Shown in pieces: positions 862 through 23,345 of a stretch of 64,000 nt of DNA. Made by a program: the position numbers and the translations under genes. The notes beneath the pieces were generated by a model. It saw only the letters and a list, made by a program, of their open reading frames with translations. It did no database searches and had not been told where the DNA came from. This DNA comes from an uncultured Anaerolineae bacterium (GTDB taxonomy: Bacteria; Chloroflexota; Anaerolineae; Aggregatilineales; Phototrophicaceae): the NCBI GenBank assembly GCA_934216615.1, contig CAKQCB010000002.1, forward strand, positions 554,409 to 618,408, written 5' to 3'. Every line of letters begins with the position of its first letter. Position 1 is the stretch's first letter.

Positions 862-2175
862 TTAGCCGTCGAGGGCTGCGTCTGCGCCTTCTTGCAGGAT
901 TTCAACGGTTTCTTCAACCGACAGACCATTGCTGGTCACGTTCGCCAACGCTTCGCTGAGCAAACCACGCACGGTGCCGTAAGCGGCAACAGAAGGCGAG
1001 CTGTAGAGGCGGACGCCTTCAGAGTTCAACCATGTGTTTGACGCATTGAAGTAAGGGAACAGGCCGGGGAATGTGACGGTTTCTTCAGTCAACAGATCGA
1101 CAGTTGAGGTCACGGGGTTGAAGTAACCTGTGCCACCGCTCCATGTCACGGCAGAGCTTTCTTGGACGAGGAACTTCAAGAATAACCAGCTGGCTAATTC
1201 TTGTTCAGGGGTTCCCGCAACAAGGGCGATACCGGGCAAGAAGACTTGTAAGCTGGGGGTTTCGGCGGCATAGGGGAACACGGTGGGAACCCAAACGTCG
1301 CTGGAACCTGCATCTTCAAATGCGGCGATCACGAAGGTGTAACCCGCAGAGCTACTGACGATGAACGGATTCAAGCCCAAAGCAAAGTCACTTTGTTCAG
1401 CAAATGCTTCGGCAGGAATGTAACCGCAACCATTGTCATACAATTCTTTGTAGAGAGCCAAAGCGCTCAAAACGGCTTCGTTGCCCGCAAATGTGAAGGC
1501 TTCGCCGTCCCAAATGGTGCCACCATGAGCAGCCACCCATGATTCAAATGCAGACGCATCTGTTGTGAGGGGGTAACCTTGCATGTCTTCCCCATTGGGG
1601 CCAGTGGCTTCTGCAACGGTGCAAGCAACTTCTTTGAAGGCTTCTACGCTGGTGGGAACTTCCAAGCCCATTCTTTCCAACAAAGATTCGTTGTAGAGGA
1701 AGAATTGTGCCGACAATTGATGTGGGAACACCAACAGTTCACCATCAACGGTGTCAAAGTCGAACAGCGCGGTGTTGAAATTCGCCAGTTCTTCTTCGCT
1801 CAAACCATAGGTGGCATCGTTGACATAAGTATTGATGTCCACAACGGCGCCATCGCTTGCATAGCTTGCAGCATCGTTGGCATAAGCGGCCACTAACGCA
1901 GGCAATTCACCAGAAGTGATCGCACCATTAAATTGTTCACGAATGTCGTTATAGCTACCGGGACGGGTCCCTTCGACTGTGATCCCCCATTCGTTGGTGC
2001 TGTTGAATTCTTCAATCAGCGCGGCGATGGTATCGCCTTGCGCACCACTAAATTGATGCCAGTAAAGGACAGATTGCCCACTGGGATCTACGCCGGATAA
2101 ATCATCTTGTGCCATCACCGCACCGCTAATGGCGAGGGCGCTCACTAAACCGAGGCTAAGAGCTAATTTCCGCAT
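862..2175 (-). CDS. sugar ABC transporter solute-binding protein (family 1)
   Basis: An exported binding protein that would capture a sugar or glycoside and deliver it to the two permeases encoded just upstream. It has 437 residues, normal for family-1 (MalE/UgpB-like) proteins. The N-terminus MRKLALSLGLVSALAISG followed by AVMAQDD is a clear signal peptide, and no lipobox Cys is seen. YWHQFSGAQGD near residue 40 and the central SAQFFLYNESLLERMGL resemble the UgpB/MalE cluster. The start is supported by AGGAGA about 11 nt upstream. It is the last gene of the kinase-kinase-permease-permease-SBP block and is separated from the permease by 116 nt with a stem-loop. No ATPase is encoded nearby, so a shared MsiK/UgpC-type ATPase elsewhere is likely. 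The substrate cannot be read from the sequence. Confidence 0.92.
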   Translation of the reverse strand: MRKLALSLGLVSALAISGAVMAQDDLSGVDPSGQSVLYWHQFSGAQGDTIAALIEEFNSTNEWGITVEGTRPGSYNDIREQFNGAITSGELPALVAAYANDAASYASDGAVVDINTYVNDATYGLSEEELANFNTALFDFDTVDGELLVFPHQLSAQFFLYNESLLERMGLEVPTSVEAFKEVACTVAEATGPNGEDMQGYPLTTDASAFESWVAAHGGTIWDGEAFTFAGNEAVLSALALYKELYDNGCGYIPAEAFAEQSDFALGLNPFIVSSSAGYTFVIAAFEDAGSSDVWVPTVFPYAAETPSLQVFLPGIALVAGTPEQELASWLFLKFLVQESSAVTWSGGTGYFNPVTSTVDLLTEETVTFPGLFPYFNASNTWLNSEGVRLYSSPSVAAYGTVRGLLSEALANVTSNGLSVEETVEILQEGADAALDG

Positions 2176-2221
2176 TGTGTCATCTTCTCCTATGAATGAT
2201 GAACTTTGACTTACTCACTGC

Positions 2222-2246
2222 CGAATAGGTGTTTACCTCATATTCG
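2222..2246. repeat. inverted repeat between permease and SBP genes
   Basis: CGAATA (2222-2227) and TATTCG (2241-2246) are perfect 6-bp arms. The spacer contains a second, nested pair, AGGT-GTTT-ACCT. In the minus-strand transcript this could fold as a bulged stem upstream of the SBP start, as an operator, an RNA-processing site or a stability element. No T-tract follows, so it is not a classic terminator. Confidence 0.4.
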
Positions 2247-2291
2247 ACAAAAAATTAACATCGCCATTCAAGACGATGGAGGTCCCGCGTT

Positions 2292-3209
2292 CTAGCCCTT
2301 CACGCCTGAAGAAGCGATCCCTTCAGTAAAGTGTCTTTGCGTGAAGAAATACAAAATTAAAATCGGAATGATCATCATGACCGAGGCCGCCATTTGCAAA
2401 TGCAGTTGATTCGGCGCTTCGTTGGAAACAAAATTCGTCAGCCCGACGGCGACAGGTCGCCATGCTTGCGTTTGTGTGACCATGATCGGCCATAAGAGCG
2501 CGTTCCATGCCCCAATAAAAGCAAACGTCACAATCGTCATCACAGGGGCGCGCGACAAGGGCATCACCACCGAGATCAGATAACGCAAATGCCCCGCCCC
2601 ATCAATACGCGCCGCATCCCAAAAATCTTCGGGAATTTGCATGAAGAACTGACGCAGTAAAAAGATGGTGAAAGCAGACGCCATGAAGGGAATGGTTAAG
2701 GCAGGCCAGTTATCAAACCAAGGGATGCCAATTAAACTGTCGCTCAACCGTCCAATCCAGATCACTGTCAAGTAATTCGGGATGAAGGTCGCGACTTCAG
2801 GAATCATCAAAGTAGCTAAGATCAAGCCAAAGATGAAGTTCTTGCCGAAGAAGTTAATGCGAGCGAACGCATACGCGGCGGGCACACACACCACCAACTG
2901 ACCGATAATCGTGATAGCGGTGATGCGGGCGCTGTTCCACATATATTGTCCAAACGCCGCTTGGTCCCACGCTTGTTGATAGTTCCCAAAACGTAGTTCA
3001 GAAGGAAGCATCGCACCGAGTGTAATTTCACCCACCGACATAAATGATGCGCTCAACATCCATAAAAATGGGAAGATCGCTTGTACCAGCCCTAAGATCA
3101 AGATGCCGTAAACGACGATGGGCTTCCATGGAATGTGACGACGTGGGTTCTTTGATGCTTCCTGCGTCGTCGCAAAGGATGTATCTAATGGGCGCGAAGT
3201 TTCAGCCAT
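2292..3209 (-). CDS. carbohydrate ABC transporter permease (MalG/UgpE type)
   Basis: The second membrane subunit of the sugar importer, 305 residues, with about six TM helices. It has a polar N-terminal tail and a first TM near residues 30-52 (IVVYGILILGLVQAIFPF). The cytoplasmic EAA loop that docks the ATPase is visible as EDFWDAARIDGAGHLRYL about 100 residues from the C-terminus, followed by the conserved VVMPLSRAP. The C-terminus HFTEGIASSGVKG is typical of UgpE/LacG relatives. The start overlaps the end of the preceding permease gene by 8 nt, which implies translational coupling and an obligate heterodimer. It is of ordinary length, unlike its partner. Confidence 0.93.
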   Translation of the reverse strand: MAETSRPLDTSFATTQEASKNPRRHIPWKPIVVYGILILGLVQAIFPFLWMLSASFMSVGEITLGAMLPSELRFGNYQQAWDQAAFGQYMWNSARITAITIIGQLVVCVPAAYAFARINFFGKNFIFGLILATLMIPEVATFIPNYLTVIWIGRLSDSLIGIPWFDNWPALTIPFMASAFTIFLLRQFFMQIPEDFWDAARIDGAGHLRYLISVVMPLSRAPVMTIVTFAFIGAWNALLWPIMVTQTQAWRPVAVGLTNFVSNEAPNQLHLQMAASVMMIIPILILYFFTQRHFTEGIASSGVKG

Positions 3210-4860
3210 AGAAAACCTTGCTCCCTAGGAATCGGTTTTGGAAAACGGTAATTAACAAAATGACTGCGAATAACACAAACGCCAGCGCCGAGCCATAACC
3301 AAGATTCGGCTCTGTTTGCCGTACCGTCGTGAAGATATGAACGGCTAACGTATCGACTGAGCTTGCCGCCGCAGGCGTTCGCATGATCCATAACTGCGTG
3401 AAGGCTTTAAACGTCCCTGTAATCGCAATTAACATGAGGAAAAAGGTTGTTGGCGAAAGTAAGGGAAGTGTGATGCGACGGAACAAGACCCATTCGCTGG
3501 CGCCGTCAATGCGGGCGGCTTCGTAAAGTTCTACGGGAATATTGCCCAATCCCGCCAAGAACACAACGGCATCATAGCCGATGTATGTCCATACGGTATA
3601 AATCATAATCACGATCAAGGCGAGGCTAGGGCCTGTCAAAACAGAGGGCAGACCTTCGCCAAAAATGAGCGTGAAAATCCCTTTCGGTTCCAGTAACCAC
3701 TTTTGATCAGGAATCCCAAACAGATTGATCAATTGGTTGATGGGTGATTCGGGACGGAATGAAAAGAGCAGATTAAACACAATCGCCGTCGCGACAAAAG
3801 GCATGATATACGGCAAGAAGTAGACCACACGGAACAGGGAACGCGCCTTAATCTCTTGGAAAAGTAGATACGCGAGTACCAAGCCGATGCCGATTTGGAA
3901 AGGAATCGTTCCGATGGCAAACATCACGGTGATGTTCAGCCCACGCAGAACGTCAGGGTCAGAATTGGCTAACGCAACAGGCAGTTCCGCAATCAACAGA
4001 TACCCGCCTACAGCAAGCGCGCCTGTGGCAAAAATACCGAGCGCAAGGTTACGTGTTCCGTCAGCGTTGAGAGAACGTCGCCAGACGATGTAAGCCAGCG
4101 CGATCAAGACGACGCCTAACGTCATCAAGACAATCTGTGACCAGATCGGCAGTTCGGTGCCAGCTTCGCGGGCCGTCGCAATCGCGGTGTTGATTTCGCT
4201 CAGCGTGAGTTCAATCACCAAATAACTAATCAACACGCTGGATGTGATGATGAAGGCTTTTACAAGCCATTGGAACCAATCGGCATGGGTGCGGATCACG
4301 AACCACCAGCCGATCAAAACCGCCATCGCGATGATGAACACCAGCAAAAATTCGTTCCCAAGCGGAAGGATGTCCGGCATTTGAAAACTTGCCATTAGCT
4401 CGTTGACAAACATGCCCGGCACACGTTCTTGTCCGCGTATGCGCTGGGGGATATTGAGCACAACAGGAAGAGCAACACTCACCCATTTTGTGAAAAAGAA
4501 AGAGGTGGCAGTCAGGCCAACCGCCGGAATGAAGGCGGTGAAAGCTTTGCGAAGATTGCCCCCACGCCACAAAGCGATCAGTTTTGTGCCTGCATAAATG
4601 AGTAGACCGAGGCTTACCCAAAAGAAAACCACATAAGCAAAATCATCTAACCCGCGAATGTAATTTCGCAAGCCAAGATAATCACCCGGAAAGCGTCGCC
4701 ACTGGTGAAAGCTTACAAAGAGAGCAAATGCTAATGGGATAAGGCCAAAAAGCAGGATTAGAATAAATGCGGGTGCAATAAACGCATAGCCTGTTAAATT
4801 CTCAAGCAAAATGCGTCGAGTACGTGATGCTGATTTTACAGCTTTAGGTGTGGCTGTCAT
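3202..4860 (-). CDS. sugar ABC transporter permease (MalF/UgpA type) with large membrane insertion
   Basis: The first membrane subunit of the importer. The last ~260 residues are a standard UgpA-type permease: FAIGTIPFQIGIGLVLAYLL, then the EAA loop ELYEAARIDGASEWVLFRR and the ITLPLLSPT motif. TM1 near residues 22-48 is also normal. Between them lies a stretch of about 230 residues with roughly five or six extra hydrophobic segments separated by charged loops, making 552 residues where about 290-310 is usual. E. coli MalF also has an insertion after its early helices, but that one is a soluble periplasmic loop; here it is membranous. The gene follows a 254-nt gap after the kinase genes and overlaps the next permease by 8 nt. 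No frameshift is visible. Confidence 0.88.
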   Translation of the reverse strand: MTATPKAVKSASRTRRILLENLTGYAFIAPAFILILLFGLIPLAFALFVSFHQWRRFPGDYLGLRNYIRGLDDFAYVVFFWVSLGLLIYAGTKLIALWRGGNLRKAFTAFIPAVGLTATSFFFTKWVSVALPVVLNIPQRIRGQERVPGMFVNELMASFQMPDILPLGNEFLLVFIIAMAVLIGWWFVIRTHADWFQWLVKAFIITSSVLISYLVIELTLSEINTAIATAREAGTELPIWSQIVLMTLGVVLIALAYIVWRRSLNADGTRNLALGIFATGALAVGGYLLIAELPVALANSDPDVLRGLNITVMFAIGTIPFQIGIGLVLAYLLFQEIKARSLFRVVYFLPYIMPFVATAIVFNLLFSFRPESPINQLINLFGIPDQKWLLEPKGIFTLIFGEGLPSVLTGPSLALIVIMIYTVWTYIGYDAVVFLAGLGNIPVELYEAARIDGASEWVLFRRITLPLLSPTTFFLMLIAITGTFKAFTQLWIMRTPAAASSVDTLAVHIFTTVRQTEPNLGYGSALAFVLFAVILLITVFQNRFLGSKVFYG

Positions 4861-5000
4861 TGATGAACCGGAGTTTTTCCCCCTTATTCCAACCCAAGCT
4901 CTTACGATAAATCAATGTTGCGAAAAAACATTTAAGAGATTATTAAGGATTTTTATTATTGTGGCGCATGTTGTTCATTTGAGCAACCACAAATGTCATA

Positions 5001-5062
5001 TAAAAATGAGAGTTTTTCTATTCTTCACCTGACAAGCCATCAAATCTTAAAAATGAGACTTT
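5001..5062. repeat. direct repeat upstream of the sugar transporter genes
   Basis: TAAAAATGAGAGTTT (5001-5015) is repeated as TAAAAATGAGACTTT (5048-5062), 14 of 15 bases identical, with start-to-start spacing of 47 nt. Both lie in the 254-nt gap between the kinase gene and the permease gene, where a promoter or operator of the transporter genes is expected. The region is AT-rich, so chance similarity is possible. Confidence 0.4.
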
Positions 5063-5114
5063 CATAAAAATAGAGCCTATACAGTTAGTTTAAGGGTTTG
5101 ATCCTGACAGGTTG

Positions 5115-7175
5115 TTACATTCCATTGTTTCTGAGACTTGGAGATACGTCGAGGTAGCGTTCTGTTGTGAGCCATGTGCTTGGGCTGGTGGTGATGATTT
5201 CGGGGACAACATGCCCTGCCATCAGGCTGATCAAACTAAAATAAGGGGCGCTGGCCGCTTCTTCATTATCGACTGCTAACGTACCGCGTAAATAATGTTC
5301 TGAGTTCACCAGCGAAACAACGGATGCCTCACCATTCACACTCAAGATCGGCATTCTTTGAGGGGAAATGTTGAGGCGCTCTAACGTAGAGACAATGCCC
5401 AACGCGATATCGTCATTGGTCGCGATGATGACATTCACACCGTCTAAAAAGCGGGGACGTTCCTGTAAAAACAGATTCAGCGTTTCATAAGTTTGCTGTT
5501 GGCCGGTGCTGTTCAAGTAGAGCGCGACACGGCTTTCTGGGGATATTTCACGCAGTCGTTGGTTGAACGCTTCGTAACGTAAATCTGAAAAAGCGGTGCC
5601 AGACGGCCCCACATATAAAATAGAAGCAAACGAGTTAAATTCTTCCGTCGCCACTTCAACGGCGAACTCGGCCAACTGTCGGCCAATCAAGTGGTTTTGA
5701 AAATCAATTTTTACGCCATACGTGCTATCGGACATCCCATTAAACACGACTGGGATATTATTCTGTTCCAACAGGCTCAAGGCAGGTTGTAACTGGTTCT
5801 CTGGAAATGGGCAGAGGATGAAACCTTGCGCCCCTTCTTGCAACACAGTACGAATCAAGGACTGCGTGACCATCGGATCGTTGCTGGTGTCATAAATCCG
5901 CAGTGAAATATCATTTTGACGGGCGATATCCGCCATTTCACGGGCGCGTTGCGCTTGCGTCGCGCTGTTCAAATTGCAAGAGATCATCGCCACAAAGCGG
6001 ATGTCCCCACTGGCCGACAGCCAATTATAGACAAACTCAAAATCCTCTTGGCTCGGTAAAACGCTGGTAATTTCACCACTCGCTTCATCCATCATCGTAA
6101 AACGTGGAAGATGCGTAGGTTCTTCGGCGGTGGAATCGGTATTAATCACAGGGGTATGGATGATCGGCGTGAAGCTGTTTTGACGTAACCACACGACGAC
6201 CAGCACCGCAATAAAAACGATCAGCGCCATCAATGCAAATTGCAACCAATTCGCGCCTCTTTTTTCGCCTTCGGTTGTGGGCAGATAAAACCAGCGTCCC
6301 AGAAAATATGAGTTGCCGCGCACATCCAGCACGACGGAAAGTTCATTCACCATTTCGCTGGCGGTGCGGTAGCGGTCTTGAGGCTTTTTGGCAATCGCCT
6401 TAGCCATCACCAAGTCAATGTTAGAAGGCAGTTCTGAATTGAATAATTTGATCGAAGGAATTGGCTCTTGAACATGCTGTTGTAATAAACCTGCGATGCC
6501 TTGACCGTTCATCTCATAAGGCAGTCGCCCCGTTAATATTTCAAATAGGACGATGCCTAGACTGTAGAGGTCAGCGCGGTGATCCACCTTTTGATGTTGT
6601 ATGGCTTCCGGTGAAACATACGCGGGGGTTCCCACCATGATGTCATGTTGCGACGGGTCTTGGGCGATGGTCAACGTGCGCGCGAGGCCAAAATCACTCA
6701 GATAGGCATTTCCCAAATGATCCAACAAAATATTGCTGGCTTTGATATCGCCATGAATCACATCATGACTGTGGGCATAGTCGAGCGCCGCGCCGATTTG
6801 AGAGAAGATTTGCACGATCTTTTCAGGCGGAAGTGCGCCTTCGCGGATATGGTCGGCGAGAGTTCCCCCGGTCATCAAGCGCATAGCTAAAAATGCGTAA
6901 CGGTCATCGACGATGCCATAGGCATACACAGGCAGCACATGCAGATGTTCCAAACGGGCGATGAGTTCTGCTTCTTGGTCAAAGCGAGGGGCAAAATTTT
7001 CAGTCAGGGTGACATCAAGGTAAAGGTCGATGACCTTCAGCGCCACATCACGGTTCATCGAAGGCTGATGCGCGCGATAAACCATCCCTGCGCTTCCCCG
7101 CGCAAGGGGTTCCAAGATGACGAACTCACCAAATGTCCTACCTGTTAGAACATCCTTTTTTTGCGCCGTGGTCAC
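5115..7175 (-). CDS. transmembrane Ser/Thr kinase with extracytoplasmic sugar-binding-protein-like sensor (copy 1)
   Basis: 686 residues. A PknB-type kinase domain fills residues ~15-283: VALKVI with Lys47, HGDIKASN (141-148; catalytic Asp143, Lys145, Asn148), DFG 161-163 and the activation segment GTPAYVSPEA. A single TM segment covers ~309-330 (FALMALIVFIAVLVVVWL). Residues ~375-670 resemble a periplasmic binding protein of the RbsB/LacI class (FVAMISCNLN, GFILCPFPENQL, INDD-like IIATNDDIALG, MPILSVNGEA). Two oddities: the loop LARGSAGMVY has Ala for the first glycine, and the catalytic motif is HGD rather than HRD. A ligand outside could thus control phosphorylation inside. It follows a paralog by 61 nt and precedes a sugar ABC transporter on the same strand. 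Domain calls are firm; the sugar ligand is inferred. Confidence 0.9.
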   Translation of the reverse strand: MTTAQKKDVLTGRTFGEFVILEPLARGSAGMVYRAHQPSMNRDVALKVIDLYLDVTLTENFAPRFDQEAELIARLEHLHVLPVYAYGIVDDRYAFLAMRLMTGGTLADHIREGALPPEKIVQIFSQIGAALDYAHSHDVIHGDIKASNILLDHLGNAYLSDFGLARTLTIAQDPSQHDIMVGTPAYVSPEAIQHQKVDHRADLYSLGIVLFEILTGRLPYEMNGQGIAGLLQQHVQEPIPSIKLFNSELPSNIDLVMAKAIAKKPQDRYRTASEMVNELSVVLDVRGNSYFLGRWFYLPTTEGEKRGANWLQFALMALIVFIAVLVVVWLRQNSFTPIIHTPVINTDSTAEEPTHLPRFTMMDEASGEITSVLPSQEDFEFVYNWLSASGDIRFVAMISCNLNSATQAQRAREMADIARQNDISLRIYDTSNDPMVTQSLIRTVLQEGAQGFILCPFPENQLQPALSLLEQNNIPVVFNGMSDSTYGVKIDFQNHLIGRQLAEFAVEVATEEFNSFASILYVGPSGTAFSDLRYEAFNQRLREISPESRVALYLNSTGQQQTYETLNLFLQERPRFLDGVNVIIATNDDIALGIVSTLERLNISPQRMPILSVNGEASVVSLVNSEHYLRGTLAVDNEEAASAPYFSLISLMAGHVVPEIITTSPSTWLTTERYLDVSPSLRNNGM

Positions 7176-7236
7176 GTTTATTACAAACCTAAGAGCATCT
7201 AGTAATTTAAAGTATCCATTTTCAATTATTAAACAC

Positions 7237-9489
7237 TTAAAATAAAGTCGTAATATTTAGGTTTCTGTTAAATGTGGTTTCCGTCGGAACAGGCGTTTCC
7301 GTCTGCAAGTCGGACTGGCGTAAATAGTTTTCATTGATGGCTAAGCCAGGCGGTACGATGACCACTTCTGCAACAGAGCTACCCGCCAACAACTTCACCA
7401 TCACATTCACAGCGGCAATCGAAAACTGTTGACGGTTAATCTCAACAGAGGCCCGCATGTAGTAGCCATCCCGTATGTACTGACGGGCGAGGTTTTCTGC
7501 ATCCACGCTAAAAATCATCACGCTGGAGGGGTCGATTTCCGCATCATTCAAGGCATCAATTGCGCCGAATGCGCCCGCGTCATTAATGCTCAAGATGACG
7601 TTAAAATCTTCGCCTTGCTCCAAAAAAGATTGGACAGCTTCATAGCCGTTTTCGCGGGTTCCGCCCGGCGCACTGCCCACAAATTCCACGTCAGGGATCA
7701 AGGACAAAAAGCCTTCTTGAAGCCCTCTGGCGCGGTTCACTAACAGCGGGATTGTGGGGTAATCTAAGATCAGGGCGCGGGCAGGTTGATCGGTTTCTGA
7801 GGTGAAAATTTCGCCACCTGCGTGGCCCGCAACATAGCCCATTTGATAGTCGTCACCGGCAATCACGACACCGCCATACGTCGGAACACCAGACGCAAGC
7901 TGTACCAAAGGCGTGTCTACAGCTTGCAAACTTTCTAAAGTCGATGTCAACAATTCAAAGTCTAGCGGGCAAATGATGAACGCCTTCGCACCCTCAGCGC
8001 GCGCCCGCTCAATTTGGGTGACTTCACGGTAGCGATCCCCATCACTGTCATAGATGCGAATGGGCAAGCCATATTCCTCTGCCAATTCGACAATTTCACG
8101 GGTTTGAACAGCGTGATATTCCGTCTCTTGGGTGCACGTCACCAGCGCGAGGAAACCCCCAGTTTCATCAAAATAATGAGATGCGCTGGCGATCTCTTGC
8201 GGGGATGGGACATATGCTTCACTCGAACCATTCACACCCGCGAGGACTTGTATCGGTGAAGTCAAAATACTGGACGTATTCATGAACATCGATTCGGCGG
8301 TTTGGGTCGCGTCGTTCTCAAGCATTTCACGGCGTAGAGAAAGCAAGCTGATGAAGGCCAAAATAGCGATGGTTAACCCCGTGAAACTGACTGCTAAAAG
8401 TGCGGCGGAACCCCATCGGTTGTTTTTTCGTGGTTCGTCGCGTATCTGTAAGATCGTAGTTCCGAAACCATCCGCTTTAGTGGTATTGGAGACGTCTTGG
8501 CTCAGCGGTTTCAGATCGTCCGTTTTGATTTTGCCCAGCTCGGTGAGCGGGTTCATCTCAGCGTCAGAGGCGAGGAGGTCTGCCTTTTCGCGAACGTCAG
8601 TCACAAGGACATCTTTCGCAAAATTGAGCGTTCCAGAGCGTCCCAAAGCGACATTCAACGCATTCGCCATTTCCAGCATATTGGGATAACGATCTGCCGG
8701 GTCTTTCGCCAAAGCCTTCAAGATCACCTGATCCACTTCATGTGAAATTTCGGGGCGGATCGTCCGCGCTGGTGCGGGGGGTTTTTCGAGATGGGCGTAG
8801 ATGATCGACGCGACGGTTGAACCCGCCGTTTCAAAGGGGGTGATCCCCGTCAGCATGTGATATAACAAAATCCCCATGCTGTAAATGTCGGCGCGGTGGT
8901 CGATGGGGTCACCACGAAGCTGTTCAGGGGAAATGTAGGCAGGCGTGCCGACGATGTTGCCCGACTGTGTAAACCCCTGTGAAGATTCGACTAATTTCGC
9001 CAAGCCAAAATCCGCTAAAAAGGCGTTGTCGGCATGGTCAAACATCAAGTTGCTAGGTTTGAGGTCGCGGTGAATCACCCCCTGACTGTGGGCATATGCC
9101 AGCGCAGAGGCGATCTGTAAAAAGATGTCCGCTGCGCGGTCAATGTTACGGTCAGTCTGGTTCACCCATGTGTTAAGCGTACCCCCACGCATCAAGCGCA
9201 TAGCGATATAAGCAAACTCGTTTTCGACAAACCCGTACCCATAAACAGGCAAAATATGGAGATGTTCCAGCGACGCGGCGAGGCGTGCTTCTTGCGCAAA
9301 ACGACGCTTAAAATTCGCGTCATTATCGTCTTGTAAGAGGATGATCTTCAGCGCGACATAGCGATCCACTGACTTTTGATGGGCTTGGTATACAAACGCC
9401 ATTCCCCCGCGCCCTATACGATGCTGTATCGTATAGTCGCCAATTTGTCGCCCTATAAACCCATCCGTAGACATAATTTGAGAAGCCAT
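7237..9489 (-). CDS. transmembrane Ser/Thr kinase with extracytoplasmic sugar-binding-protein-like sensor (copy 2)
   Basis: 750 residues, same architecture as the next gene. The kinase domain covers ~18-282: GRGGMAFVY, Lys48 in VALKII, the full HRDLKPSN motif (140-147), DFG 160-162 and GTPAYISPEQ. A juxtamembrane linker of ~75 residues rich in Asp/Lys/Thr follows, then a TM segment ~358-384 and an outside RbsB-like domain ~435-735 (FLALVTCTQE, AFIICPLDFELL, VVIAGDDYQMGY, VILSINDAGAFGA, MIFSVDAE). With canonical catalytic residues it is the more likely active member, and the long linker could hold phosphorylation sites. It is first in the block and has a good promoter about 60 nt upstream. Divergent neighbour: the C39-like peptidase gene. 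Confidence 0.92.
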   Translation of the reverse strand: MASQIMSTDGFIGRQIGDYTIQHRIGRGGMAFVYQAHQKSVDRYVALKIILLQDDNDANFKRRFAQEARLAASLEHLHILPVYGYGFVENEFAYIAMRLMRGGTLNTWVNQTDRNIDRAADIFLQIASALAYAHSQGVIHRDLKPSNLMFDHADNAFLADFGLAKLVESSQGFTQSGNIVGTPAYISPEQLRGDPIDHRADIYSMGILLYHMLTGITPFETAGSTVASIIYAHLEKPPAPARTIRPEISHEVDQVILKALAKDPADRYPNMLEMANALNVALGRSGTLNFAKDVLVTDVREKADLLASDAEMNPLTELGKIKTDDLKPLSQDVSNTTKADGFGTTILQIRDEPRKNNRWGSAALLAVSFTGLTIAILAFISLLSLRREMLENDATQTAESMFMNTSSILTSPIQVLAGVNGSSEAYVPSPQEIASASHYFDETGGFLALVTCTQETEYHAVQTREIVELAEEYGLPIRIYDSDGDRYREVTQIERARAEGAKAFIICPLDFELLTSTLESLQAVDTPLVQLASGVPTYGGVVIAGDDYQMGYVAGHAGGEIFTSETDQPARALILDYPTIPLLVNRARGLQEGFLSLIPDVEFVGSAPGGTRENGYEAVQSFLEQGEDFNVILSINDAGAFGAIDALNDAEIDPSSVMIFSVDAENLARQYIRDGYYMRASVEINRQQFSIAAVNVMVKLLAGSSVAEVVIVPPGLAINENYLRQSDLQTETPVPTETTFNRNLNITTLF

Positions 9490-9552
9490 AACTACTTAAA
9501 GTTTCACAAAAAAAGATCAACCATGCGATTAATCCTGCTTGGTTAGGGGATA

Positions 9553-9582
9553 ATCATAAGATATTCACCAAAAACTTGCCAA
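9553..9582 (-). promoter_or_regulatory. sigma-70-type promoter of the kinase gene
   Basis: Read on the minus strand: TTGGCA (9582-9577), an 18-nt spacer and TATGAT (9558-9553), each 5 of 6 to consensus. The predicted leader to the kinase start at 9489 is about 55-60 nt. Confidence 0.5.
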
Positions 9583-9640
9583 AAGATTAGAGTTCCCTAA
9601 AAAACTTTTTTGAAATTTCTTTTAGCGTCGATCAAAAAAA

Positions 9641-9655
9641 ACGTTTAGGAAACGT
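9641..9655. promoter_or_regulatory. palindrome ACGTTT-AGG-AAACGT, candidate operator
   Basis: A perfect inverted repeat with 6-bp arms and a 3-nt spacer. It sits in the divergent region between the kinase gene and the peptidase gene, about 36 nt upstream of the extended -10 element of the latter. No regulator can be assigned from sequence alone. Confidence 0.35.
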
Positions 9656-9687
9656 AGTCTAGACACTCAACATGCAGAGACTACGAC

Positions 9688-9696
9688 TGGTATAAT
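9688..9696 (+). promoter_or_regulatory. extended -10 promoter element
   Basis: TGGTATAAT is a perfect TATAAT preceded by the TGN extension. No good -35 hexamer lies at 17 nt, as is common for extended -10 promoters. It would drive the C39-like peptidase gene with a leader of about 30 nt. Confidence 0.5.
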
Positions 9697-9732
9697 AGGG
9701 GTAGAAAGCTCGAACAGTAGAGGTGGATGACC

Positions 9733-10812
9733 GTGATTTTGAAACAATTTCGTTCCAAACTTGGAGCGGTTTTAGGGATACTGAGCGTAACCCTACTTTT
9801 AAACGTTGTGGGGGCAAGCGCCCAAATTCCACAACCCACACAACCCATTTCCTTACCAACTGAATACCGCCTGAATGGTATTACACACATTTATCAGGGC
9901 TGGAATAACTGTGGCCCCGCAACCTTGACGATGGGGCTGACGTATTTCGGTGTCCCTGCCGATCAATACCCTGCGGCACAGTGGTTGAAACCGAATTCAG
10001 AAGATAAAAACGTCAGCCCATGGCAGATGACCGCTTACGTCAACACACAACTGCCCGGCACAGTCCAAGCGTTGATGCGCTACGGCGGTACGCTGGACAC
10101 CCTGCGTTTGCTGATTGCTAATGATTTCCCCGTCATCATCGAAGCGGGATATGACCCGCCCGGTGAAAACCTCGGCTGGATGGGACACTACTTGTTGATG
10201 TCCGGTTACAACGATGCCGCGCAAGTCTTCGTCGCGCAGGACAGCTACGACGGCCCGAACCTGCCCTACACATACGATCACGTTCAAGAGTATTGGCAAC
10301 ATTTTAATTACCTCTACATCGTTTTGTATGATGTGTCACGCGAAACCGAACTGCTCACGCTCTTGGGTGACGACGCAGACGAAGATCAAAATGTGGTCAA
10401 CGCGATGGCGATTGCCCGCGCCGAAGCAGTTGCTAACCCTGAAGACCCATTTGCTTGGTTCAACATGGGGACAAACTTCAATCTCTTGGGCATGTACTCA
10501 GAAGCTGCCACTGCCTACGATCAATCCCGTAATGTGGGGGATGGTCTGCCGTGGCGAATGATGTGGTATCAGTTTGGCCCGTTTGAAGCTTATTTAGAAG
10601 TGGGGCGTTACAACGATGTGATCTCACTGGCCGCCGCAAACTTGAATGACGGCGGGGGGCAATATGTGGAAGAAACCTACTATTATGCAGGTTGGGCACG
10701 TGCAGGTTTAGGCGAAACCCAACGCGCGATTGATAATTTTAATGGCGCGATCAGCTTCAACCCGAACTTCACCCCCGCACGCGAAGCCTTGAGCGAAGTC
10801 ACAGGCGGGTAG
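9733..10812 (+). CDS. exported C39-like cysteine peptidase with TPR tail
   Basis: Signal peptide/anchor in the first ~33 residues (LGAVLGILSVTLLLNVVGASAQ), so it acts outside the membrane. Residues ~45-195 form a papain-fold domain of the Peptidase_C39_2 type: Cys62 in QGWNNCGPATLTM, His154 in MGHYLLMSGY and Asp172 in VAQDSY (numbered from the ATG at 9727). Residues ~235-350 hold TPR-like helices. The ATG at 9727 directly abuts the Shine-Dalgarno GAGGTGG (9720-9726) with no spacing, whereas the in-frame GTG at 9733 lies 6 nt from it, so I place the start at the GTG. No bacteriocin or ABC exporter is nearby, so a housekeeping cell-surface protease or transglutaminase-like role is possible. Confidence 0.82.
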   Translation: MILKQFRSKLGAVLGILSVTLLLNVVGASAQIPQPTQPISLPTEYRLNGITHIYQGWNNCGPATLTMGLTYFGVPADQYPAAQWLKPNSEDKNVSPWQMTAYVNTQLPGTVQALMRYGGTLDTLRLLIANDFPVIIEAGYDPPGENLGWMGHYLLMSGYNDAAQVFVAQDSYDGPNLPYTYDHVQEYWQHFNYLYIVLYDVSRETELLTLLGDDADEDQNVVNAMAIARAEAVANPEDPFAWFNMGTNFNLLGMYSEAATAYDQSRNVGDGLPWRMMWYQFGPFEAYLEVGRYNDVISLAAANLNDGGGQYVEETYYYAGWARAGLGETQRAIDNFNGAISFNPNFTPAREALSEVTGG

Positions 10813-10912: not shown

Positions 10913-11536
10913 TCAACCATTTAACGCTTCTAACAAAGCGCGGAACGCCAATTTATAATCTTGCGTGAAATCAAAGCGCGGTTTGCGTCGAATATCGTCG
11001 GGTGGGTCGATGGGCGCAATCTGCGCGATCACAATCGGCTTGTTTTTCGACTTAAAAAACTGCTTCGCCGTTTGGACACTCTCCGCAACTTTACTTTCGA
11101 GAGAGAGTACATAGACCATGCGCGAACACTCTGTTAACGCAGGATGGACGCCGGATGCCCAAGAAATATCACCCGGATCATGTTCGTGAAGCCAGCAGGC
11201 CACCCCTAACTGGCGTAACCCGCCTGCCAATTGTTCCGCAAACGCTTGATCTTCGACCGCAAAATTGATGTATACCGTTTCTTGCGTCAGTTTCACCCGC
11301 GTATTGGTCGCCACTTGGACGGATTCAGGTTTTTCAGACGCTTCATGAGCGGTACTGCGCCCCATACGAAAGACTTTCCCTCCACAATACGGGCAGTTCC
11401 CCGAAGTCGCAGGAACCCCGCGCCGTGTCCAAACCGCATGGGGGGCTTCCATCTCAATGGTTTCACGGCAGCGCACACAATAGGCCTCAATGGGTTCTGG
11501 CTCAAACAGGTCATCCATGTTGGTGTCGTTCGTCAT
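10913..11536 (-). CDS. zinc-ribbon (DUF5679-like) - TIR domain protein
   Basis: 207 residues. Residues ~18-60 form a DUF5679-like zinc ribbon with two CxxC knuckles (Cys20/23 and Cys48/51), the type with AYCVRCRETIEM and GNCPYCGGKVFRMG. Residues ~87-205 are TIR-like (TIR_2): VYINFAVEDQAFAEQLAGGL, GVACWLHEHDPGDISW, ALTECSRMVYVLSLES and KPIVIAQI. By my alignment the usual catalytic Glu of NAD-cleaving TIRs, about nine residues before KPI, is Ala157 here, so it may be a scaffold rather than an NADase. No effector or sensor gene of a known defence system adjoins it. It lies downstream of recA, separated by a terminator. Cytosolic by lack of TM or signal. Confidence 0.75.
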   Translation of the reverse strand: MTNDTNMDDLFEPEPIEAYCVRCRETIEMEAPHAVWTRRGVPATSGNCPYCGGKVFRMGRSTAHEASEKPESVQVATNTRVKLTQETVYINFAVEDQAFAEQLAGGLRQLGVACWLHEHDPGDISWASGVHPALTECSRMVYVLSLESKVAESVQTAKQFFKSKNKPIVIAQIAPIDPPDDIRRKPRFDFTQDYKLAFRALLEALNG

Positions 11537-20330: not shown

Positions 20331-21095
20331 TTATAACCCAAAGTACATTTGATCCCGTCGATACGATACCCTTACAGGAACCCCGCGTGAGGGTATTTTT
20401 TCGCGTAAATCCGGACGGTTCACGCGCACCTCACCCGTTAACACCTTCCCCTGTGGAGAAACAAATTTAAAGTAGAATGTCACCCCATACAAGCCGGGCA
20501 GGGCGACTTTTGGCGGGATCGTCTCGACCAGTTCGCCCGTCAGTAATTGACCATGCATGATCAACCACTGCCTGAAAACGTTGAACAGACAAAATGACGC
20601 TGTGGCTAACGCGCCCAACGGAACCAACCAGCGTAACAATTCATACGTTGTGCGCTGAATCGGCTGTCCATCAATGATCATCCATGACGGTGTGTTGGCA
20701 TCATAAATCACGCTCAGGCGTTCCCCCGCGCTTTGCAGAACGGGTAAACGTCCCCATAATTCCGAACCGACAGGGGCAGATTGTTCGTAATCCTGCCCAC
20801 CTACGCGGTAGCGTACCGTGACCATGCCGCCGCTCAAAAACGGAATCCCCGTAGGGACCGCGGAAACAATGTCCGCGCGGATGCGTAACCCTTGCGTTTC
20901 GATGCGCACAAAATGATCAACTTGTTGGGAAAAGGCGGAATAGGCAAGCGCCGCGCTCACGATCAACAGTACCGCAATCACGATGAAAAAAATCTGCTTG
21001 CCGAAACCTGTCCGTTTACCGCCTCGCGCCAACTTTTTATAACGTCGGTTCATGACAAAAACGGGGACTCTTGGTTGGCTTTCTGGTAACGACAT
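20331..21095 (-). CDS. DUF3592-like membrane protein, array copy 4 (divergent)
   Basis: 254 residues. TM1 at ~32-53 (IFFIVIAVLLIVSAALAYSAF), an outside DUF3592-like domain (~60-150: ADIVSAVPT, VTVRYRVGGQDYEQSAP, LSVIYDANTPS), TM2 at ~165-187 and a cytoplasmic tail (~190-254) ending VPVRVSYRRDQMYFGL. It is the last and most divergent of four tandem paralogs: the central SNAFY-type segment of the others is replaced by SELWG. The ORF starts 5 nt after the preceding copy and ends 7 nt from the convergent regulator gene. Function unknown. Confidence 0.82.
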   Translation of the reverse strand: MSLPESQPRVPVFVMNRRYKKLARGGKRTGFGKQIFFIVIAVLLIVSAALAYSAFSQQVDHFVRIETQGLRIRADIVSAVPTGIPFLSGGMVTVRYRVGGQDYEQSAPVGSELWGRLPVLQSAGERLSVIYDANTPSWMIIDGQPIQRTTYELLRWLVPLGALATASFCLFNVFRQWLIMHGQLLTGELVETIPPKVALPGLYGVTFYFKFVSPQGKVLTGEVRVNRPDLREKIPSRGVPVRVSYRRDQMYFGL

Positions 21096-21100
21096 CGACG

Positions 21101-21865
21101 TTACAACCCACGAAACATCGTATCATTTGCATACAGTACAAGGATGGGCATACCCTGACGCGGAAGGCGTTTCCCGCGCAGATCACGGCGGTTATAAGTC
21201 ACCTTCCTCGTGAGATATTTTCCTGAAGGGGATTGAAAACCGTAGTTGAATAACAGCGTGTAGTCGTTGCCGAAAATCCCACGCCGACCGCCAAGCGCCG
21301 TCACAGAGATTAACTCGCCCATAATGCGCTGACCATTGATGATTTTGTTATTCACGCGCTCCAGAATCAACAAAATAAGCGCGAGGATCACCGTAGAGGC
21401 GAGGATGAGGTTGCGCGGGATGAATAACTCTGACTGCGCATAATCATCATCGACAAAACGCACAAACGAGGGGTCGTTATGATCGTAATAAATTTCATGC
21501 TCAGTGCCGACTTCAACATCAGAAAAAAACGGGTTCGAGACGCGAAGCATCGTCTGATAATTTTCAGATTCAACACGGTAATTCAGCGTCAAATAGTTAT
21601 TTGACGCATAACGCGAAAACCGCTGACTTTTATTCTCTACCGTTGCGATCACCCGTGTATTGGTACTGACCATACTTTCATAACGCTGTATTTGATACGT
21701 AAACCACGCCAACGCTACCACACCAGCAATCAGCAAAATAAAGATCACGCCCCAATAAATGACATGGTTACGCGTATTTGCGTTCTCTCTCAACAAGTTC
21801 TTATGAGAGGGTTTCATCAAAAAATAGGGCGCTGCGGTTCCTGCTTGTGGATCAGTCATGATCAT
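21101..21865 (-). CDS. DUF3592-like membrane protein, array copy 3
   Basis: 254 residues. The N-terminal tail MKPSHKNLLREN is shared in pattern with the other copies. TM1 ~35-57, outside domain ~65-145 (VIATVENKSQ, YLTLNYRVESENYQT, RVSNPFF, EIYYDHNDPSF), TM2 ~152-172 (LILASTVILALILLILE) and an inner domain ~178-254 (IMGELISVTALGG, FNYGFQSPSGKYLTRKV, MPILVLYANDTMFRGL). The start overlaps the stop of the upstream copy by 4 nt. The outer and inner soluble parts look like two related beta-rich units. Function unknown. Confidence 0.85.
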   Translation of the reverse strand: MIMTDPQAGTAAPYFLMKPSHKNLLRENANTRNHVIYWGVIFILLIAGVVALAWFTYQIQRYESMVSTNTRVIATVENKSQRFSRYASNNYLTLNYRVESENYQTMLRVSNPFFSDVEVGTEHEIYYDHNDPSFVRFVDDDYAQSELFIPRNLILASTVILALILLILERVNNKIINGQRIMGELISVTALGGRRGIFGNDYTLLFNYGFQSPSGKYLTRKVTYNRRDLRGKRLPRQGMPILVLYANDTMFRGL

Positions 21866-22617
21866 AGTCCGCGAAACAAGGTGTCATTCACATAAAGGAC
21901 AATAACAGGTGTTCCCGCTTTCGGCAACCATCTTGAAGTCCCTAAATCGGGACGGTTGTGCATCGTTTTCTTCCGAAGTTGTTTACCTTGAGGGGTGGTA
22001 AAACGATAATCAAAGTGGACATGTTGACCCCGCGCACTGGTAAAACGTGCCTCAACAAGGTGACCATTGAGCCTTTGCCCTTTGGAAAGACGGTGATTGC
22101 GAACGTCGATGAAAAGTGTATAAGAGGCCGACACCAACATAAAAAGCGGGATGCCTACAAAAGGAATATGCAGGTTGGTCTTCATGTGGTCATCGTCCAC
22201 CAACAGGATAAAGTTGGGGTCGGACGGATCGTAATAGAGCGCCAGTGACATACCTTGTTGCACACGTTCATAGAAGGCATTAGATATCTGAATCGCCGTC
22301 TCGTAAGCTTGTCCCTCCACTGTATAGGCTAAGCGCACACGGCTCACTGGAAGTTGTTGGGTATAAGTTTGCCAGACATCCTCGACAGTCGCTTGAACAA
22401 CATGATCAGACGTTTGAAGCGTCGCATAATGTTGGATTTGGGGGCCAAAATAGACTAGCGCGCCTACCCCGATGCTCAATAGGATGAGCGCAATTGCCCC
22501 CATGATATAGCTGTTGCCGATCCGTGTCGATTTACCCGTCAAAAGTTTCTGATGTTTTGGGTTCATGAGAAACGGCGCAGGCGGAATCCGCTCAGCAGAA
22601 GCGTCTTGCATCCTCAT
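21862..22617 (-). CDS. DUF3592-like membrane protein, array copy 2
   Basis: 251 residues. MNPKHQKLLTGKSTRIGNS precedes TM1 (~35-58). The outside DUF3592-like part reads VQATVEDVWQT, VRLAYTVEGQAYETAIQISNAFY and LALYYDPSDPNFIL, the family pattern of a beta-rich domain with a YDPxDP turn. TM2 is at ~150-170; the inner part ends TPVIVLYVNDTLFRGL. Clearly closest to copy 1 (shared RIGNSYIM and QISNAFY). It overlaps copy 1 and copy 3 by 4 nt each. Function unknown; the surrounding long run of surface-glycan genes is on the same strand. Confidence 0.86.
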   Translation of the reverse strand: MRMQDASAERIPPAPFLMNPKHQKLLTGKSTRIGNSYIMGAIALILLSIGVGALVYFGPQIQHYATLQTSDHVVQATVEDVWQTYTQQLPVSRVRLAYTVEGQAYETAIQISNAFYERVQQGMSLALYYDPSDPNFILLVDDDHMKTNLHIPFVGIPLFMLVSASYTLFIDVRNHRLSKGQRLNGHLVEARFTSARGQHVHFDYRFTTPQGKQLRKKTMHNRPDLGTSRWLPKAGTPVIVLYVNDTLFRGL

Positions 22618-23345
22618 AAACCTCGAAAGGTTCTCTCATTCAGATACAACACAATCACCGGTGTTCCTGTAGTGGGCAATGTTTTTGACTTCCACAAATC
22701 CGGCCGACCAATCAACATCTTTTTCTTGAGGAGCTTGCCTTCAGGGGTATAAAACCCGTATTCAAACCGGACTTGTCGCCCTTTGGCACTGCCATAATTG
22801 ACAGCGAGAAGTTCACCCGCAATCATCTGCCCTTTGGACACTTTGCGGTTTCTATAGTCCATAAACATCATGAGGAGCGCGGGAATCACCGTAAAAACAG
22901 GGATTAACACACGCGGAATTTGCAGATCATCTTTCGCTTCGGAATCACGGACGGGCAAGACAAACGAGGGGTCATTCTTGTCAAAATAGAGATCAATCGT
23001 CATGCCTTCGCTGACGCGATTATAAAACGCATTCGATATCTGAAGGGTGACGGTGTAACTTTCCCCGCTCACAACATAATTAAGCGTAAGCCTGCTGTTA
23101 CGACTACCGCGCCGTGAACGGGTTTGACGCGCTTCTTCAATCGTGGCTTGGACGATATTTCCAGCGCCTTGTATCGTCTCATAGCGCTGGATCACCATCG
23201 TGAAATAGATGATTGACCCGACGCCGATGGCTAAAAGAACCAGCGCGATTGACCACATGATATAGCTGTTGCCAATGCGCTTGGCTTCTCCGTCCACAAA
23301 CTTTTGATTGCGGCGATCCATCACAAAATAATTCGGTTGCATCAT
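22614..23345 (-). CDS. DUF3592-like membrane protein, array copy 1
   Basis: 243 residues, first of the four tandem copies. MDRRNQKFVDGEAKRIGNSY leads into TM1 (~30-52). The outer domain has VQATIEEARQTRS, RLTLNYVVSGESYTVTLQIS and IDLYFDKNDPSFVL; TM2 is at ~140-160. The inner domain has IAGELLAVNYGSAKGRQVRFEYGF and ends TPVIVLYLNERTFRGL. It is preceded by 57 nt after the hydratase gene and overlaps copy 2 by 4 nt, so the four are surely one transcript. No catalytic motif is visible; a scaffold or sensor role is possible but unproven. Confidence 0.86.
   Translation of the reverse strand: MMQPNYFVMDRRNQKFVDGEAKRIGNSYIMWSIALVLLAIGVGSIIYFTMVIQRYETIQGAGNIVQATIEEARQTRSRRGSRNSRLTLNYVVSGESYTVTLQISNAFYNRVSEGMTIDLYFDKNDPSFVLPVRDSEAKDDLQIPRVLIPVFTVIPALLMMFMDYRNRKVSKGQMIAGELLAVNYGSAKGRQVRFEYGFYTPEGKLLKKKMLIGRPDLWKSKTLPTTGTPVIVLYLNERTFRGL

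Follow-up and report, generated by a model that had tools for sequence, protein, structure and literature searches.

Two receptor-like Ser/Thr kinases with RbsB-like outside domains beside a CUT1-type importer in an uncultured Anaerolineae bacterium

Genes of the kinase and importer locus

A 64,000-nucleotide stretch of DNA from an uncultured Anaerolineae bacterium (contig CAKQCB010000002.1), which we call the window, carries five consecutive open reading frames (ORFs) on its minus strand. Two of these, K1 and K2, code for receptor-like Ser/Thr kinases and the other three code for two permeases and a binding protein of an ATP-binding cassette (ABC) importer. The original prediction had described two paralogous PknB-like kinases that each have one transmembrane helix and an outside domain like RbsB and that lie upstream of the importer genes on the same strand, and the strand of the ORFs, Pfam matches, transmembrane segments and AlphaFold models bear this out. 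K1 (7237-9489) has 750 amino acids and K2 (5115-7175), which starts with GTG, has 686. Pfam matches for all five ORFs exceed the gathering cut-off. Both kinases match Pkinase (173.7 bits for K1 and 154.5 bits for K2, cut-off 31.7) and Peripla_BP_4 (86.4 and 52.2 bits, cut-off 35.1), and between these two domains lies a single hydrophobic segment (residues 361-385 in K1 and 307-333 in K2). Aligned over 729 columns, which cover the kinase and the outside domain (hereafter the sensor), the two proteins share 31% identity.

The kinase domain of K1, residues 19-275 (8665-9435), aligns to PknB (5u94) with an E value of 4.4e-50 and has the glycine loop GRGGMAFVY, VALK, HRDLKPSN and DFG, and its activation loop, FTQSGNIVGT, aligns to that of PknB. 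HRD and DFG are kept in all 40 rows of the K1 family alignment. The best match of the K2 kinase in the PDB is PknE (2h34, E 7.4e-42); its catalytic loop, HGDIKASN, has HGD in place of HRD but it retains the VALK lysine, the catalytic Asp, the Asn and DFG. By domain and motif, K1 and K2 can both be classed as Hanks-type (PknB-like) Ser/Thr kinases. Pfam gave no match to a PASTA domain in either protein, and the scores against the NCBIfam model PknB_PASTA (302.2 bits for K1 and 251.1 bits for K2) are under its cut-off of 450.

The sensors of K1 (residues about 445-724, 7318-8157) and K2 (5148-6062), of which that of K2 is divergent, are assigned the type I periplasmic-binding fold. Modelling of the outside domains, which the original prediction had proposed, gave confident AlphaFold folds for both (pLDDT, the model confidence score, 90.5 for K1 and 91.2 for K2), and both match sugar-binding proteins structurally; with the K2 model, Foldseek returned 2vk2 at E 4e-18 and 1drj with a TM-score (target) of 0.88. 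These models support a sugar-binding-protein fold for both predicted sensors. The Arg, Asn and Asp of the C-terminal lobe at RbsB positions 141, 190 and 215, which we take to be pocket residues, are all present in K1, and K2 has an Asn where K1 has an Asp. Position 15 of RbsB, which together with 16 is presumably the aromatic position of the pocket, has Tyr or Phe in all 40 K1 rows. Two cysteines of K1, C452 and C507 (RbsB positions 9 and 64), are invariant and mark the sensor subfamily and its free-standing kin described below.

Downstream of K2 lie a 552-amino-acid MalF/UgpA-like permease of the CUT1 type (3202-4860; BPD_transp_1, 57.5 bits), a MalG/UgpE-like permease of the same type (2292-3209; BPD_transp_1, 65.3 bits), and the predicted extracellular binding protein of the importer (862-2175; SBP_bac_8, 105.4 bits). 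Two BPD_transp_1 permeases and an SBP_bac-type binding protein are the Pfam make-up of a CUT1 importer. The best NCBIfam models of the permeases are UgpA (64.5 bits, cut-off 335) and UgpE (134 bits, cut-off 297), and all the best named models of the importer, UgpE, UgpA and UgpB, score far under cut-off. By Pfam, no ABC ATPase is among the five proteins; CUT1 importers commonly use a shared MsiK/MalK-type ATPase. K1 and K2 are separated by 61 bp, K2 and the MalF-like gene by 254 bp, and the MalF-like and MalG-like genes overlap by 8 bp. Promoter-like matches (7) and terminator-like matches (6) in 4700-9900 are as in shuffled sequence (6.4 and 6.5), and the 254-bp gap has no minus-strand promoter-like match inside. 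Co-transcription of the five genes is unproven.

Distribution and gene neighbourhood of the K1 family

A search with the K1 sensor, in which 7995 candidates were scored, gave 157 proteins at E 1e-3, and among the 120 of these that were listed, one being the window's own, 116 have a precomputed kinase domain. The four that are kinase-less are P0004, P0005, P0026 and P0109, and three of them are on contigs under 4 kb. A search with the K2 sensor found K2 alone, and in the tree K2 is on a long branch and its placement is unsure. A genome scan gave 36 loci, 34 of them labelled Chloroflexota (Anaerolineae and the like). The other two are labelled Pleurocapsa (L002) and Actinosynnema (L036), and L036, with 25% identity, was rejected as not a K1. 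L002, labelled Pleurocapsa minor, has a tandem of two sensor kinases, and its K1 groups with Anaerolineae; the record is probably mislabelled or a mixed assembly. In a survey of 396 genomes of the class, 19 match at 1e-60, and 13 of these are K1-grade, having a frame of kinase size that matches at 1e-97 or better. From 25 genomes chosen for having K1, 24 match at 1e-103 or better, 23 of them with one copy and G006 with three, and the match in G024 is weaker. In the metagenome assembly of G024 a stop interrupts the K1-type kinase gene (L034), and this locus was left out of alignments and trees but kept in the neighbourhood counts. The best sensor identities of the database kin of K1 are 50-57%. 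The combination of kinase and sensor is not unusual in this clade, though few of the class genomes, the 13 above, are K1-grade.

Neighbourhoods were counted on 35 loci, L001-L035, in subsets set by flank length, and downstream typing covered permeases of the CUT1 and Opp types that start within 4.5 kb and 4.7 kb, respectively. A CUT1 permease was found in L010 and L012 among 25 loci with at least 4 kb downstream, and a CUT1 pair is also present in L026, which has 3.3 kb downstream. With the Opp-type permeases of L011, L013, L018 and L033, the tally for 26 K1 loci is three CUT1-linked and four Opp-linked. The order is co-directional in each CUT1 case: K1, 101 bp, a kinase and MalF in L012; K1, 88 bp and MalF in L026; and K1, two kinases and a MalF fragment at the contig end in L010. 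The importers of the window and of these three loci are related to each other. A single-clade origin of the four linked K1s is rejected on a quick tree (approximately unbiased test, p 0.0002). On the K1 tree, made by the same quick method, the four CUT1-linked rows, among 31 that are labelled, take 4 changes; on the MalF tree 3 changes suffice, which was matched by 166 of 500 shuffles. The present trees would fit repeated gain as well as an old link lost many times and do not distinguish them. The four Opp-linked loci group in a single region of the K1 tree, L018 and L033 being near-copies, and in L013 K1 is followed, 111 bp on and in the same direction, by the gene of the Opp binding protein. 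At six further K1 loci (L048, L049, L050, L052, L053 and L054) there was no match to MalF or MalG among genes picked by length; this gene picking missed K1 itself in L046, and an absence seen with it is weaker than the other absences given here.

A second kinase directly follows K1 in 7 of the 30 loci that have at least 900 bp downstream. It bears a sensor in L002, L005, L010 and L012, and no sensor match was seen in L015, L017 and L031. One tandem paralogue kinase in L005 has HGD and DFS. The commonest neighbour of K1 is on its other side. In the window it is a Peptidase_C39_2 and TPR protein (Pfam) with a signal-like N-terminus (9727-10812, plus strand), and a C39-TPR gene stands divergent beside K1 in 19 of the 32 loci whose upstream flank is 300 bp or longer. 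Of the 396 class genomes, 230 have a C39 match at 1e-40.

A protein with a TIR domain and DUF5679 is encoded next, at 10913-11536 of the window. In L011 and L022 its kin lie near RecA and no more than about 6 kb from K1, and this looks like a conserved chromosomal block. GH31-cluster glycosidase genes, typed on L018, are on the K1 side in L018, L027, L033 and L035, which is a further hint of a carbohydrate context. Farther off, at 20331-23345, are four tandem genes for membrane proteins of 243-254 amino acids, two of which were compared and are 29% identical; among three that were scanned, two have weak DUF3592 matches, one of them above the cut-off.

The importer, the free-standing relatives of the sensor and the readings of the locus

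The importer was also followed apart from K1. MalG gave 781 matches across 24 K1 genomes, about 132 Mb, and in 14 of the 24 there is a near-full-length match at 54-75% identity, 13 of these at 59% or more. Only in two of the 14, G008 and G020, is this match beside K1. Stretches of 10-18 kb were taken around the orthologous importer in the other 12 and around the less similar matches in G018 (46%) and G025 (53%, partial), and these 14 stretches (L057-L070) had neither a kinase match nor a C39 match. A further partial MalG match in G016 (61% over 143 residues) is outside them. In the class, MalF matches 92 of 396 genomes at 1e-80 and 14 at 1e-150. Five genomes (G001, G008, G013, G302 and G408) are both among these 14 and among the 13 with a K1-grade kinase, which exceeds the expectation under independence, kinship between the genomes being included in the excess.

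The closest non-kinase kin of the K1 sensor that were found are free-standing solute-binding proteins (SBPs) of 339-394 amino acids at nine loci, L037-L045, which match the sensor profile at E about 9e-64 to 2e-73 and are 32-34% identical to the K1 sensor. In a tree from which L043, a near-copy of L042, was left out, the eight free SBPs form one clade (support 97) next to the sensor of kinase L055. The motifs C..(S/T)EYH, Arg, SINDAG and DAE and the two cysteines are common to the K1 sensor and the free SBPs. In seven of the nine loci the SBP gene is followed by permease-sized and ATPase-sized genes that have, by look, the arrangement of a CUT2 operon; in L038 and L041 the stretch has no CUT2 operon. 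The operon of L042 was typed, and it has a DeoR/SorC-type regulator, the SBP, a BPD_transp_2 permease, a double ABC ATPase, a SIS protein nearest to the isomerase part of GlmS, and a PfkB kinase. This gene content suggests that the ligand class may be a monosaccharide, perhaps an amino sugar. After this operon, at 13649-15802 of L042, is a gene for a 717-amino-acid protein with no Pfam match at 1e-5 and no NCBIfam match at 1e-6, and a similar gene of 718 amino acids is in L045.

The reading that we favor, to which we give a probability of about 0.62, is that K1 is a receptor kinase gated by a sugar-like ligand, with K2 a diverged copy, and that it may take part in importer control in some lineages. 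A sugar-like ligand would enter the cleft of the RbsB-like domain outside the cell, closure of the lobes would alter the arrangement across the single transmembrane helix, in which dimerisation may play a part, and the PknB-like kinase inside would phosphorylate K1 itself and cell proteins. K1 would be the conserved receptor and K2 its diverged tandem copy, which probably senses something else or acts as a partner. Some lineages have the receptor genes ahead of an ABC importer, which these genes perhaps help to control, and the receptor also exists with no such link. Several observations weigh against this proposal. The Asp-Arg pair of the N-terminal lobe of RbsB (D89 and R90), presumably sugar contacts, is replaced at both positions in K1, and 35 of 40 K1 rows have His at the position of F16; therefore the ligand of K1 may be no ordinary pentose or hexose. 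Nineteen of the 26 K1 loci have neither of the two permease types that were typed downstream. Adjacency to any MalG-like permease, 3 of 26 compared with 0.69 expected (P 0.03), is a weak excess, and the stronger excess for the one named importer is post hoc and presumes one copy per 5.5-Mb genome. In the 12 other K1 genomes, the stretch around the orthologous importer (54-71% identity) is without a kinase match. A DtxR-type gene, its family typed on L009, lies directly downstream on the opposite strand in L008, L009, L022 and L023, and since this gene too recurs, in four loci, to recur downstream of K1 is not special to the importer.

The original prediction had suggested a one-component pathway from sugar to phosphorylation, with the adjacent importer as the likely one of the sensor; in this reading the kinases would sense the solute that the importer carries and switch its expression or transport by phosphorylation. 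In its favor are the shared gene order and direction of the window and of L010, L012 and L026, with related importers and K1s that are not one clade, and the co-occurrence in five genomes. As a general rule the adjacency fails on the 19 unlinked loci and the 12 genomes whose importer stretch has no kinase match; the fusion that was to be surveyed across genomes does recur, but at most loci with neither CUT1 nor Opp permeases downstream, an outcome of the kind that the prediction itself had named as refuting it. The binding protein of the importer (SBP_bac_8) and the sensors (Peripla_BP_4) are moreover of different families, and because the closest free kin of the sensor are mostly in CUT2-type operons the idea of its likely importer is weakened. 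We therefore demoted this explanation to a rival and think it unlikely. The same kin could point to the solute of a CUT2-type importer as the ligand, the CUT1 neighbor being incidental or a remnant of an old neighborhood, and four genomes (G009, G014, G022 and G302) contain K1 together with an SBP of this kind. This is a possibility that we hold tentatively: at 1e-60 the free SBP is found in only 3 of the 25 chosen K1 genomes, so a CUT2-type importer does not regularly accompany K1, the stretch shows no such operon at two of the nine loci with a free SBP, and 32-34% identity does not fix a ligand. We consider it quite improbable that the outside domain has a docking or structural role instead of sensing a ligand, with the divergent C39-TPR protein or another receptor as possible partners. 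The frequency of that neighbor and the loss of the classical sugar contacts of the N-terminal lobe would fit such a role, but both K1 rows and free SBPs retain the contacts of the C-terminal lobe and the motifs of the cleft, and the C39 family, with matches in 230 of 396 genomes against 13 with K1-grade kinases, is not a dedicated partner. That K2 is a pseudokinase or a weakly regulated partner of K1 is suggested by its HGD and by the HGD and DFS of the L005 kinase, but we regard it as doubtful given the catalytic residues that K2 retains.

Known systems and meaning of the K1 receptor kinases

PknB, PrkC and StkP, of the PASTA type, likewise have an N-terminal Hanks-type kinase, a single transmembrane helix and an outside part, but in K1 and K2 this part is RbsB-like. 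LytS is a histidine kinase. The hybrid two-component sensor BT1754 (PDB 2x7x) also has a sugar-binding-protein fold as its periplasmic part, whereas K1 and K2 are Hanks kinases. XylFII-LytS, named in two papers (PMC9602780, PMC9769921), is likewise a periplasmic binding protein that feeds a membrane sensor kinase, but unlike in K1 the binding protein is separate from the kinase. Ser/Thr kinases under the influence of a binding protein are known where the two are separate proteins (PMC9769921, PMC9602780); in the GlnH-GlnX-PknG system of Corynebacterium a solute-binding protein controls a Ser/Thr kinase, but through three proteins and with amino-acid ligands (PMC9769921), whereas K1 is one polypeptide with a sensor fold of the sugar type.

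The same make-up of kinase and Peripla_BP_4 is present in Anaerolineae proteins that databases name, by automatic annotation, protein kinase or substrate-binding domain-containing protein. A product name bifunctional kinase/ABC substrate-binding protein is in use in Streptomyces, and a literature search prompted by it found nothing. The fusion itself is already annotated in databases, but we found no report of this fusion of a kinase with a binding protein, in a search that most subscription papers were outside of, and no bench or functional study of these kinases.

A wider proposal is that K1 represents a widespread class of one-protein sugar receptor kinases, with a cysteine-pair pocket common to CUT2-type SBPs, that has been repeatedly attached to one importer under its control. 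If it were true, the common pocket would mean that a nutrient outside the cell is converted directly into a Ser/Thr phosphorylation signal; we consider it rather unlikely in this full form. Few bacterial Hanks kinases have a known signal. The ligands of the K1 sensor class should be findable by standard thermal-shift screens, for which the free relatives that share the pocket would provide a shortlist, and both the signal and the substrates of a bacterial receptor Ser/Thr kinase would thus be directly testable in a large and little-studied group.

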